The position numbers and the translations under genes are program-made. DNA of 64,000 nt from contig NZ_KI912183.1 in the NCBI RefSeq assembly GCF_000189755.2, forward strand, positions 2,358,257 to 2,422,256, in the 5' to 3' direction. This document shows positions 2,950-64,000 of the stretch, in pieces. The notes beneath the pieces were generated by a model that searched no databases, was not told where the DNA came from, and was given only the letters and a program-made list of their open reading frames with translations. How positions within the stretch are numbered: position 1 is the first letter of the stretch; every line of letters starts with the position of its first letter. Source of the DNA: Desulfotomaculum nigrificans DSM 574. GTDB taxonomy: Bacteria > Bacillota > Desulfotomaculia > Desulfotomaculales > Desulfotomaculaceae.

Positions 2950-3699
2950 TTGGCCAAACAAAAATTAATCCTGCTACCCGGATGGGGTATGGATTCAAAG
3001 GTGTGGAGCCCGGTTACAGAGGTTTTATCGAAATATTTTGTTCTTATTTATTGTGACTGGTACCGGGTGAAGTCGGTTGAAGAGTATACCGCACGGGTTT
3101 CCCGTGTAATCGATAAAAACGTTGACGGGTGTTTTTCACTGCTTGGGTGGTCTTTAGGCAGTCTATTGGCCATTGAAGCCGCATGTCTGTACAAAGATAG
3201 GATAAACAAGTTAATACTTGTCAGTGGAACCAGCCGGTTTATCAGGGATAAAAAAAGCGGATATAGGTGCGGTTGGCCGCGGAATGTTGTTGAAAAGATG
3301 AAATCTGCGCTGCTCCATGATCAACAAAAAACGCTCGATTCCTTCTGTAAGGCCATGTTTTCCGAAGAAGAAATACAACAAGGGTGGCCTGAGACGTTCA
3401 CGGGAAAACCTGACCGAAACAGAGGAACTTATGAGACACAGGAATTGTTGGCCGGCCTGGATTTTTTAATGCAAGCTGACTACCGGGAAAAGCTGCATGA
3501 AATCGAGGCGCCTGTGCTGATGATCCATGGCGAAAAAGACACCATTTGTCCTGTTTCCGCCTCAGAATATATTTCGTCCCAATTGAAAGGGGATGTCTTC
3601 CTCAAGATTATGAAAGGGGTTGGACATATTCCTTTCCATACGGGAATGGAAGAATTTAATTACCACTTAAAGGGGTTTATTACCAGAGGAAAAGCATGA
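2950..3699 (+). CDS. bioH: Pimeloyl-ACP methyl ester esterase (BioH-like)
   Basis: Alpha/beta hydrolase expected to remove the methyl group that BioC adds, releasing pimeloyl-ACP for BioF. The nucleophile elbow GWSLG has S68; D197 (HGEKDT) and H226 (GVGHIPFH) complete a plausible triad. The N-terminal LLPGWGMDSKVW resembles the oxyanion region of BioH. It starts with TTG and overlaps bioC by 4 bases (ATGA), so the two are probably translationally coupled. The family assignment rests partly on operon context, because many hydrolases share this fold. Confidence 0.82.
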   Translation: MAKQKLILLPGWGMDSKVWSPVTEVLSKYFVLIYCDWYRVKSVEEYTARVSRVIDKNVDGCFSLLGWSLGSLLAIEAACLYKDRINKLILVSGTSRFIRDKKSGYRCGWPRNVVEKMKSALLHDQQKTLDSFCKAMFSEEEIQQGWPETFTGKPDRNRGTYETQELLAGLDFLMQADYREKLHEIEAPVLMIHGEKDTICPVSASEYISSQLKGDVFLKIMKGVGHIPFHTGMEEFNYHLKGFITRGKA

Positions 3700-6650: not shown

Positions 6651-6692
6651 TGATTTCATTAGTGTAATCACTAATGGAGACAATTTAATAAT

Positions 6693-6773
6693 AGACACAG
6701 GGGAGCGATAAGCTGAGAAAGGTTAAGACCTGACCCTCATAACCTGATCTGGGTAATGCCAGCGAAGGGAGTG
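6693..6773 (+). promoter_or_regulatory. TPP riboswitch (THI element)
   Basis: Conserved thi-box segments are present in order: ACACAGGGGAGC, AGCTGAGA, then ACCTGATCTGGGTAATGCC and AGCGAAGGGA. It is followed 25 bases later by a strong terminator hairpin. It sits 190 bases before cytX-thiSGHF, whose products take up and make thiamin precursors. By known mechanism, thiamin pyrophosphate binding should favour termination and switch the operon off. Confidence 0.95.
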
Positions 6774-6797
6774 ATTAGACGGCTAATATCGGGTATT

Positions 6798-15979: not shown

Positions 15980-16094
15980 AGGCTAAATCTACTAAATGCC
16001 GAATCCCGTAACGGGTACGGAGGAACCGTTCTTGGGGTGAATCCTTTTTAGGTAGGGTTATCCTTGCCCGAACCCGTCAGCTAACTCCGGAGGC
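15980..16094 (+). promoter_or_regulatory. c-di-AMP riboswitch (ydaO/yuaA type)
   Basis: The conserved segments appear in order: GCCGAATCC near 15998, GGGGTGAATCC near 16033, TAGGTAGGG, and CCCGAACCCGTCAGCTAAC near 16067, followed by GGAGGC. These match the ydaO-yuaA aptamer core as I know it. It ends 4 bases before the ribosome binding site of the CAP-protein gene. Known members usually switch genes off when cyclic di-AMP is high and often control cell-wall proteins. Confidence 0.88.
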
Positions 16095-16115
16095 AAAAAG
16101 GAGAGGATGGAAAAA

Positions 16116-32672: not shown

Positions 32673-32790
32673 CTCTTATCCCGAGAGGTGGAGGGACTGG
32701 CCCAATGAAACCCGGCAACCATCCGGCATGACCCCGGACAGGTGCTAATTCCTGCAGAAGAAATTTTCTTCTGACAGATAAGAGGTGTTA
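32673..32790 (+). promoter_or_regulatory. SAM-I riboswitch (S-box)
   Basis: S-box core is visible: CTCTTATCCCGAGAGGTGGAG at the 5' side, GGGACTGGCCCAATGAAACCC, CGGCAACC, AGGTGCTAATTCC, and closing GATAAGAG, which pairs with CTCTTATC. A terminator follows. By known mechanism S-adenosylmethionine binding favours termination. It controls the homocysteine operon beginning at 32875. Confidence 0.96.
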
Positions 32791-60739: not shown

Positions 60740-60897
60740 TAATTTGATAGCACGGTTGGAGTAGTCGGAGATAACCTCAAATAGGCAGTTTCCTTTTGGA
60801 ATTGTCTTGGTTTGTTGTGTTAATCCATACTCCATCAGAAAAGTGAAACGGCCTATTGGTACATGCTAAAATGTGCTTTAGGTCGTTTATTTTTTTG
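60740..60897 (+). ncRNA. Candidate structured RNA, copy 1
   Basis: Outer GGAGTA (60758) / TACTCC (60828), then conserved GGAGATAACC, inner AACC/GGTT, and hairpin AGGCAGTTTCC / GGAATTGTCT (60783-60807). A terminator AAACGGCCTA / TAGGTCGTTT plus ATTTTTTT ends it at 60897. Copy 2 lies 385 bases downstream with the same order and compensating changes. No coding frame is conserved between them. Confidence 0.6.
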
Positions 60898-61124
60898 TTA
60901 ATTCCAGGAAATATTAAAGATTGACTTATTTTTAAACGGTTGGGGGAGAAATTTGTTTAGGTTTGGGCTTTATAAAGGTACGTGACGAAGACTACAACAT
61001 TGTCCGTGAAATCGCCCAAGGAAGTAATACATAAAAGTTTTAAAAAAATAAAAAAATTTAAATTTAAAAGCAGGAATTCAAGTTTTGTTGTAGAAATATA
61101 TACAATATATAAAATAGTAAAAAA

Positions 61125-61287
61125 ACAATTTGATATTTTGGTAGGAGTCTTGGAGATAACCCCTGGTAGGCATTTCGTATTTGAAATGTCTAAGTAGGGG
61201 TTTTTATACTCCTTCTGGCCAGGAGAAAAGGAGACGGCCCAGACGGACATTCATTCAAAGAATGTCTGCTCTGGGCTATTTCTTTTA
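61125..61287 (+). ncRNA. Candidate structured RNA, copy 2
   Basis: AATTTGATA, GGAGT (61144) / ACTCC (61208), GGAGATAACC, AACCCC/GGGGTT, hairpin AGGCATTTC / GAAATGTCT (61168-61191). Then GAAAAGGAGACGGCC leads into a long terminator (GCCCAGACGGACATTC with GAATGTCTGCTCTGGGC and TATTTCTTTT). It is homologous in order to copy 1. I cannot name a known RNA family. Confidence 0.6.
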
Positions 61288-61470: not shown

Positions 61471-62181
61471 ATGTCACCATTTTTAGCTGAAATTATTGGC
61501 ACTATGATTTTAATTATATTAGGTGATGGTGTTGTTGCAGGTGTTCTGCTTAGAAAATCTAAGGCAGAAAACAGTGGCTGGATTGTTATTACAGTGGGTT
61601 GGGGTTTAGCTGTGGCAATGGCTGCCTACGCTGTTGGAAGTTTTAGTGGAGCCCATTTGAACCCGGCCTTAACTATAGCTCTTGCCGCCATTGGCAAATT
61701 TCCTTGGGCTGATGTACCTTCCTATATTCTTGCTCAATTTATTGGTGCTTTTCTGGGTGCTGTTGTTGTATGGCTGCATTATTTACCTCACTGGAAAGAA
61801 ACTGAGGACCAGGGAGCAAAATTGGGGATCTTTTGTACAGGCCCTGGCATCCGTGACACCTTTGGCAACCTATTAAGTGAAATAATTGGTACCTTTGTTC
61901 TGGTATTAGGCATCTTAGCCATTGGAGCAAATAAATTTGCCGATGGTATTAACCCCTTTATTGTGGGTCTGTTGATTGTAGCCATTGGGGTTTCTTTAGG
62001 TGGTACCACCGGCTATGCCATTAACCCAGCCCGTGACCTGGGACCCCGTATTGCACACGCTGTGCTGCCCATTGCAGGTAAAGGAAGCTCAGATTGGGGC
62101 TATGCCTGGATTCCCGTTGTGGGACCAGTTATCGGTGGCATTTTGGGAGCCTTATTTTATAAAGCGTTCTTTTTAGCTTAG
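61471..62181 (+). CDS. glpF: Glycerol uptake facilitator (MIP channel)
   Basis: 236-residue aquaglyceroporin with six membrane segments. The two NPA motifs are HLNPALTIA (N64) and the variant AINPARDLGPRIAHA, whose D after the second NPA marks glyceroporins rather than water channels. GGAGGGGG precedes the ATG. It is followed by glpK at 42 bases. Confidence 0.95.
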   Translation: MSPFLAEIIGTMILIILGDGVVAGVLLRKSKAENSGWIVITVGWGLAVAMAAYAVGSFSGAHLNPALTIALAAIGKFPWADVPSYILAQFIGAFLGAVVVWLHYLPHWKETEDQGAKLGIFCTGPGIRDTFGNLLSEIIGTFVLVLGILAIGANKFADGINPFIVGLLIVAIGVSLGGTTGYAINPARDLGPRIAHAVLPIAGKGSSDWGYAWIPVVGPVIGGILGALFYKAFFLA

Positions 62182-63726
<1,545 letters not shown>

Positions 63727-63751
63727 TTTGATAGCGGCTTGAGAGATGGAG

Positions 63752-63796
63752 AAAGCCACACAATATCGGGACCTTTCCTGCTATTGTGTGGCTTTT
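63752..63796 (+). terminator. Intrinsic terminator after glpK
   Basis: AAAGCCACACAATA and TATTGTGTGGCTTT form a 14-base-pair stem, followed by TTAATAAAA. Confidence 0.88.
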
Positions 63797-63842
63797 TAAT
63801 AAAAGTTTTTACTGCCAAGTTTTTGCATCGGGGGTTAGAAGT

Positions 63843-64000
63843 GTGGAGACGGATAAAGCTCAGGTGGTGGTAATCGGTGGTGGAGCCACCGGCACAGGGA
63901 TACTTCGGGACTTGGCCCTCAGGGGTATTCCCGCAATACTGGTGGAACAGGGTGACCTGGCCCACGGCACCAGCTCCCGGTTTCACGGGCTATTGCACAG
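63843..64000 (+). CDS. glpA: Glycerol-3-phosphate dehydrogenase, N-terminal part
   Basis: Frame from GTG 63843 runs off the window after 52 codons. The FAD-binding [21 protein letters not shown] and [12 protein letters not shown] are typical of GlpA/GlpD. GGGGG lies 8 bases before the GTG. With glpF and glpK it completes glycerol uptake and oxidation. GlpA versus GlpD cannot be decided from this fragment. Confidence 0.88.

Follow-up and report, generated by a model that had tools for sequence, protein, structure and literature searches.

At the end of the window (the whole stretch of 64,000 nucleotides that was analysed), two leader copies precede the genes glpF-glpK-glpA, and this locus raises the question of what these copies do. 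The first-pass annotation described them as a pair of homologous structured RNAs and suggested either a tandem small RNA or a new aptamer class. The copies are very probably conditional-terminator leaders of glp genes, under the control of the glycerol-3-phosphate (G3P)-responsive antiterminator GlpP. The observed basis of this reading consists of the anatomy of the leaders, their homologues and gene contexts, the co-occurrence with GlpP, the matching of stem arms, the overlap with terminators and a missing glpP. We infer the binding of GlpP to the repeats and the effect of G3P, the direction of regulation being presumed from that of Bacillus subtilis. The features of the region are listed in Table 1.

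Table 1. Features of the glp leader region, with positions counted from the first letter of the window.
Feature	Position	Strand	Basis
Copy 1 (type B leader element)	60741-60896	+	Motif positions, alignment with copy 2, comparison with G008
Conserved TTGATA box, copy 1	60744-60749	+	
Copy 1 module GGTT / GGAGT-AGTC-GGAGA-T / AACC, predicted GlpP hairpin	60754-60776	+	Stem score 4, -2.8 kcal/mol
Copy 1 inner stem and hairpin, without a clear U-tract, not scored as a terminator in the loose terminator scan of the G000 repeat matches	60773-60822	+	Folds
TACTCC, partner of GGAGTA 60758-60763 (outer stem, copy 1)	60828-60833	+	Fold
Copy 1 terminator and T-tract	60847-60896	+	Folds
Remnant 3' end of chemoreceptor gene	60965-61106	+	99% identity with the terminal part of the G008 chemoreceptor gene
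Copy 2 (type A leader element), two serial modules ahead of glpF	61127-61286	+	Positions, fold, R1 model search
Conserved TTGATA box, copy 2	61130-61135	+	
Copy 2 module 1: GGT-A / GGAGT-CTT-GGAGA / TA-ACC	61140-61161	+	Motif scan, arm-pairing test
Copy 2 terminator 1: ACCCC...GGGGT, then TTTT	61159-61205	+	-23.8 kcal/mol
ACTCC, possible partner of GGAGT 61144-61148 (copy 2)	61208-61212	+	Fold
Copy 2 module 2: GGCC-A / GGAGA-AAA-GGAGA / C-GGCC	61217-61239	+	RNAalifold; helix 98.2% paired
Copy 2 terminator 2 and T-rich tail	61236-61286	+	-27.5 kcal/mol
glpF, glycerol facilitator (MIP)	61471-62181	+	
glpK, glycerol kinase	62224-63726	+	
Third site: TTGATA, single module GGCTT / GAGA-GAT-GGAGA / AAGCC (63736-63757), terminator to TTTTT	63725-63797	+	R1 search
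glpA-type glycerol-3-phosphate dehydrogenase, likely GTG start, runs off the window	63843-64000	+	Similar protein in L056 is GlpA

The motifs that had been named for the two copies are all present. In copy 1, TTTGATA (60743-60749) is followed by GGAGT (60758-60762), GGAGATAACC (60767-60776) and the AGGCA hairpin; in copy 2, TTTGATA (61129-61135) is followed by GGAGT (61144-61148), GGAGATAACC (61152-61161) and then the hairpin. The mean column identity in the alignment of copy 1 with copy 2 is 79%, and the fold z-scores are -6.25 and -8.57, respectively, with none of the 200 dinucleotide shuffles being as good. Both copies are real structured leaders that look functional, and the description of two related structured copies, each with a terminator, is retained. 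In copy 2, the first terminator has the arms ACCCC...GGGGTTTTT, and the second has GGCCCAGAC...GGGCT with a T-rich tail behind it; in copy 1, the second repeat pair is degenerate. The two main terminators were called from the folds and not from the simple terminator scan, whose output lacks both of them and contains the inner hairpin of copy 1 as its sole entry. Promoter sites are no commoner than in shuffles (3 against 4.2), and no promoter is therefore claimed. No known Rfam family was matched at the leader copies when the whole window was scanned with covariance models at curated scores. Elsewhere in the window, the riboswitches identified at curated scores are TPP (6689-6787), c-di-AMP (15987-16110) and SAM (32673-32784).

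The first annotation left out the purine repeats, a further stem enclosing each repeat pair and a third site, at 63725. The unit consists of a short stem (GGTT/AACC, GGCC/GGCC or GGCTT/AAGCC) and the loop that it closes; the loop carries two RGAGA repeats, with a spacing of 3 nt in most cases, and the 3' arm of the stem also serves as the 5' arm of the terminator. Two such modules are arranged in series in copy 2, while copy 1 and the third site contain one each. Judged by the homologues, the conserved part is a repeated module and not an aptamer core. GGAGATAACC, which was thought to be invariant, is indeed present in both copies, but it varies among the homologues (GGAGACGACC, AGAGATAAGC). 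Searched alone, it was found at 17 places in the genome; of the nine on the + strand, only the two window sites showed a leader. The proposed inner stem is also present, but it is read here as the foot of the first terminator, its 5' arm having an alternative partner, GGT(T), upstream. It is this pairing with the upstream GGT(T) that is more likely the regulated one. The third site lies between glpK and glpA, at the same place as in five relatives (L051, L052, L059, L060 and L295), and the first arm of its terminator begins with the AAGCC of the module. It is the simplest form of the module: judged by the sequence, five bases are shared between the module stem and the terminator, which compete for them.

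The structure was further examined by comparative folding. With RNAalifold on nine elements, the second terminator being left out, the GGCC/GGCC stem was predicted unprompted; at the first module, terminator 1 and the outer stem were predicted and the module hairpin was not. In an alignment of 15 elements, one of them from the window, standard pairs make up 90.5% of the four helices, compared with 85.2% in shuffles, and changes on both sides are seen at six pairs, against 2.0 in shuffles (0/500 as high), figures that lean in favour of the structure because the alignment was fitted to it and it was derived from nine of the 15 sequences. Homologues with compensatory changes do exist, in line with the covarying stems first proposed from the two copies. 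The outer GGAGT/ACTCC pairing stood in part: its GGAG portion is kept in 90.9% of cells, but the changes are one-sided (G-C or G-U) or leave the bases unpaired. As an extra state, the outer GGAG/YUCY stem is plausible, not proven. Isolated modules fold weakly (-2.5 to -6.2 kcal/mol), the best fold of the first module of copy 2 being another shape, and the terminators reach -17.8 to -27.5 kcal/mol. Such weak module folds next to strong terminators would be expected if a protein must hold the modules closed.

Taken alone, the bare repeat pattern (GGAGW-N2-6-GGAGA) is hardly enriched genome-wide, with 50 matches against 36 for the reversed pattern in the window's genome (G000) and 60 against 50 in G006. 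A loose terminator scan is passed by 12 of the 50 matches in G000, five of which also have a stem score of at least 3; three of these five are glp sites. The other two repeat pairs, with weak stem and terminator calls, are located at G000:C1:637491 (L248) and G000:C1:2099625 (L272).

The first homologues were obtained by a DNA search of 60 relatives, in which only clear matches were kept, followed by inspection of the loci. Related elements were found ahead of glpF in genomes of the same genus and of other families. Other sites are located before glpP (G006, G001), before glpQ and glpT (L054) and, elsewhere in the window's own genome, between glpP and glpA (L056). A model, R1, was then built from nine copy-2-like elements and gave 19 matches in 11 of the 113 genomes of the order (E <= 0.05). 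Seventeen of these matches precede glp genes (11 glpF, 2 glpT and one each for glpA, glpK, glpP and glpQ), one precedes a chemoreceptor gene and the weakest precedes another gene. This weakest match (L192, G037:C12:68797-68908, E 0.039), ahead of a 280-aa non-glp gene, would be either a chance match or a new context. Within the window, the R1 search identified copy 1 (E 0.0015, copy 1 being left out of the model) and the third site (E 0.0085); both are absent from the genome-wide matches at E <= 0.05.

The distribution of the element follows that of GlpP. This protein (PF04309) scores over the cut-off in 13 of the 113 genomes, and all 11 genomes with an R1 match are among them (hypergeometric probability 1.3e-13, a value that ignores kinship, as eight of the 11 genomes belong to one genus). 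The window's genome encodes GlpP at G000:C1:1956227 (196.7 bits). The GlpP genomes with no R1 match are G004, where no module was found beside the gene, and G051, where a module precedes pyruvate kinase. A second, truncated GlpP-like frame of the window's genome (L049, G000:C1:2598768-2599151) covers model positions 28-155 of 173.

To extend the comparison beyond the order, GlpP loci were taken from named genomes (80 places, mostly Clostridia according to the record titles) and from a plasmid collection (Bacilli and others), and the resulting 118 sources were scanned for the motif [AG]GAG[AT]-N2-6-[AG]GAGA adjoining a terminator. The scan gave 83 matches in 59 of the 118 sources. Excluded from the count were 18 matches lacking any recognised glp gene within 700 nt, 7 whose flanks were duplicates, 4 located within glp genes and 2 elsewhere in the window, which left 52 distinct modules with a glp gene within 700 nt (26 glpF, 10 glpP, 9 glpA/D, 3 glpK, 2 glpQ and 2 glpT). 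The repeats are spaced by 3 nt in 36 of the 52 modules. The stem score is below 3 in seven, and a few of the 52 are doubtful, such as L065 at 1454, which resembles a ribosome-binding site before glpP. TTRATA is found in only 4 of the 29 modules outside the order. Modules at glp genes extend to distant Clostridia and to a plasmid of the Bacillaceae. The glpF and glpD leaders of Cytobacillus (L171, Bacillaceae) carry the same module, with the stems GTGA/TCAC and GGT/ACC. No module was found at the settings used in the loci of Paenibacillus, Fusobacterium, Enterococcus, Planococcus and Vescimonas, and one weak match came from an E. coli locus, where the GlpP-like gene belongs to a record labelled plasmid.

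Nine further modules were inspected, eight from among the 18 excluded matches plus one newly found in L297, and the next gene was scanned in seven of them. The next genes encode DAO/BFD flavoproteins in four loci (L109, L115, L150 and L159), the one in L109 resembling a G3P oxidase below the curated cut-off. In L144, the next gene is dhaK, and in L122 it encodes an IclR-type regulator. In L297, the locus of G051, a GlpP-like gene is followed by the module with its terminator (about 3095-3106, reverse strand) and then by the pyruvate kinase gene. The module may be used by GlpP paralogues with roles other than glycerol use.

On average, the two arms of a stem match one another better than arms re-dealt among the modules. 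The mean arm pairing over the 52 modules is 3.68, compared to 2.77 (sd 0.14) when the 3' arms are re-dealt (0/5000 as high), and a stem score of 4 is reached by 28 modules, against 12.3 expected and a shuffle maximum of 23. Outside the genus, with one module per locus (n=31), the mean is 3.53 against 2.84, with one of 5000 shuffles as high; a score of 4 is found in 13 of the 31, against 6.7 expected, some shuffles being higher (maximum 15). Among the 45 modules that reach a stem score of at least 3, the overlap of the module arm with the terminator is seen in 40.

The motif was also compared with control motifs. Because the 80 loci were picked for holding GlpP, glp genes are near by design; these loci also served for the control motifs. 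Among the 171 matches of the true motif, 21, each in a different locus, lie between genes and are followed by a terminator and a glp gene; the seven control motifs gave 0 to 2, and an AT-rich motif gave 6 of 863. Two further control motifs (8 and 11 matches) overlap the true motif and are unfair controls. Exact GGAGA pairs have a terminator in 11 of 31 cases, two of them apparently coding, against 6 of 104 for eight other letter orders together; GAGAG (12 of 18 with a terminator) is also unfair because it overlaps the true motif. These controls are post hoc, as the motif had been spotted by eye in the elements of the order and in the first distant loci.

The following mechanism is proposed. 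Without GlpP-G3P, the nascent RNA would fold into the terminator, and transcription would stop ahead of glpF, where copy 2 has two successive terminators, and a second time ahead of glpA. When glycerol raises the G3P level, GlpP would bind the two RGAGA repeats in the hairpin loop just 5' of each terminator and keep the weak stem, of any of the three types, closed. Since the 3' arm of this stem is the 5' arm of the terminator, a closed stem would block the terminator and the glp genes would be read. A more elaborate version, which we consider possible but doubtful, is that the glpF leader forms a two-gate cooperative switch, in which, after closure of the first gate, the outer GGAG/YUCY stem would mask the first repeat, type B leaders being different. 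Such a switch, if true, would provide a steep, low-leak response to glycerol from a protein reading RGAGA-N3-RGAGA loops.

The available portions of the literature describe a comparable system in Bacillus. In B. subtilis, G3P-bound GlpP binds the antiterminator, and a GlpP site and a terminator are common to the promoters of glpD, glpT and glpFK, as stated in part of PMC9604022; a similar statement on the GlpP site and terminator is made for B. licheniformis in part of PMC6225680. The present leaders resemble the glpD, glpFK and glpT leaders of B. subtilis in their overlapping regulon, the 5' UTR terminator and the GlpP protein encoded in the genome, which makes a B. subtilis-type control by GlpP likely. 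In contrast to B. subtilis, two serial modules and an extra outer stem are found before glpF, a type B variant precedes glpP and a chemoreceptor gene, and the enzyme is of the anaerobic glpA type. Some of these differences may already have been described, as the comparison is based on descriptions and not on the B. subtilis leader sequences. The control of glp terminators by GlpP is already known, and the tandem two-gate architecture may be new. In the available portions of PMC9604022, PMC7430163, PMC3997798 and PMC6225680, as distinct from the original GlpP papers and the supplementary figures, GlpP is said to bind the leader or to prevent its terminator, and no explicit GlpP RNA consensus was found.

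Alternatively, the 113-nt fold might be a riboswitch that binds a small molecule (G3P or glycerol, for example) and controls its own terminator. The fold is strong and conserved, with compensatory changes, and the gene contexts would be consistent with a single metabolite. Tandem arrangements are known among riboswitches. Nevertheless, a riboswitch is improbable: a permissive Rfam scan of 1 kb, up to E=10, gave nothing at the leaders save one chance hit, all that distant lineages have in common is a short hairpin, purine-rich in its loop, and a terminator, and all 11 element-bearing genomes among the 113 searched encode GlpP. Because the shared unit is so short and the longer element was found, among the 113 genomes, only in those encoding GlpP, the new aptamer class suggested at first is not supported.

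A site for an ANTAR protein of the EutV/NasR type would consist of two hairpins, the second overlapping the terminator. Its logic is comparable, small hairpins excluding the terminator (part of PMC3369931), and three ANTAR matches are found in the window's genome. However, the known sites are described in the same part of that source as two small stems with hexanucleotide loops, with A first and G fourth, whereas here one loop is occupied by a motif of 12-15 nt that contains two RGAGA repeats, which falls outside the ANTAR loop definition. ANTAR proteins also occur in 99 of the 113 genomes, against 11 for the element. Differing thus in loop sequence, loop size and phylogenetic distribution from the ANTAR sites described, the module has very little chance of being one. 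The copies could finally be trans-acting small RNAs of about 150 nt. This reading suits the strong terminator at the end of each copy and the lack of a gene directly behind copy 1 in this strain, where termination would release a free RNA of 150 nt. The tandem small RNA is nevertheless highly unlikely: a glp gene directly follows 17 of the 19 R1 matches in the order, and the copy 1 counterpart in the near-identical G008 leads glpP.

Spaced repeats near a terminator are also a feature of other RNA-binding proteins. TRAP RNA sites contain spaced GAG-type repeats, and HutP sites, in the descriptions available, NAG-type ones. Unlike both, the module has a single RGAGA pair inside a hairpin loop and lies next to a different protein family.

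Under GlpP control, the preferred reading, a compact shared RNA signature is probably read by GlpP. Such a short signature, extending from Clostridia to a Bacillaceae plasmid, would permit the annotation of GlpP regulons and reveal the target of GlpP. Two solved structures, 3kts and 1vkf, are listed for the GlpP family. Added targets of GlpP are likely to include the chemoreceptor and dihydroxyacetone kinase, and possibly pyruvate kinase.

The position of copy 1 can be explained by comparison with G008, which is 99% identical here. The G008 sequence matches the window to about 60946 and then continues into an intact glpP. In the window, a deletion scar (about 60946-60965) is followed by the remnant of the chemoreceptor gene, and from 61104 on the window matches the glpF leader of G008. 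A transposase gene is located in G008 between the chemoreceptor gene and this leader. From this pattern, the best interpretation of copy 1 is that it led a glpP-chemoreceptor stretch since deleted from this strain. It would be an orphan of the glpP gene lost at that place, the genome keeping a glpP elsewhere. A tblastn search with six glp proteins detected no glp-gene remnant between the copies. A protein-coding reading was rejected for the 71-aa ORF at 60982-61197, which runs through the chemoreceptor remnant into the leader, in agreement with the non-coding nature first assigned to the conserved part.

Copy 1 belongs with the elements at L050 (1920), L058 (2011) and L060 (1124) to type B, which is characterized by GGCAGTTTCCTTT and GAAA(C/T)GGCC. 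Type B elements precede glpP in L050, in L058 and in the G008 counterpart of copy 1; in L060, the element precedes a chemoreceptor gene with a phosphonate-binding domain. Conservation in these leaders includes GGCAGTTTCC together with GAAA(C/T)GGCC at the terminator foot (60783-60803 and 60845-60853 in the window; L050, L058 and L060). Type B leaders may use a different switch, in which a conserved GUUUC would pair with GAAAY at the terminator foot. Chemoreceptors with a phosphonate-type binding domain (PF00015 and PF12974) are preceded by the element in two genomes (L060 1124-1242, L293 267-375), which suggests a putative chemotaxis controlled by GlpP. In L293, tandem modules (134-236 and 267-375), each with a TTGAT-containing box, are located before the chemoreceptor gene of G037.
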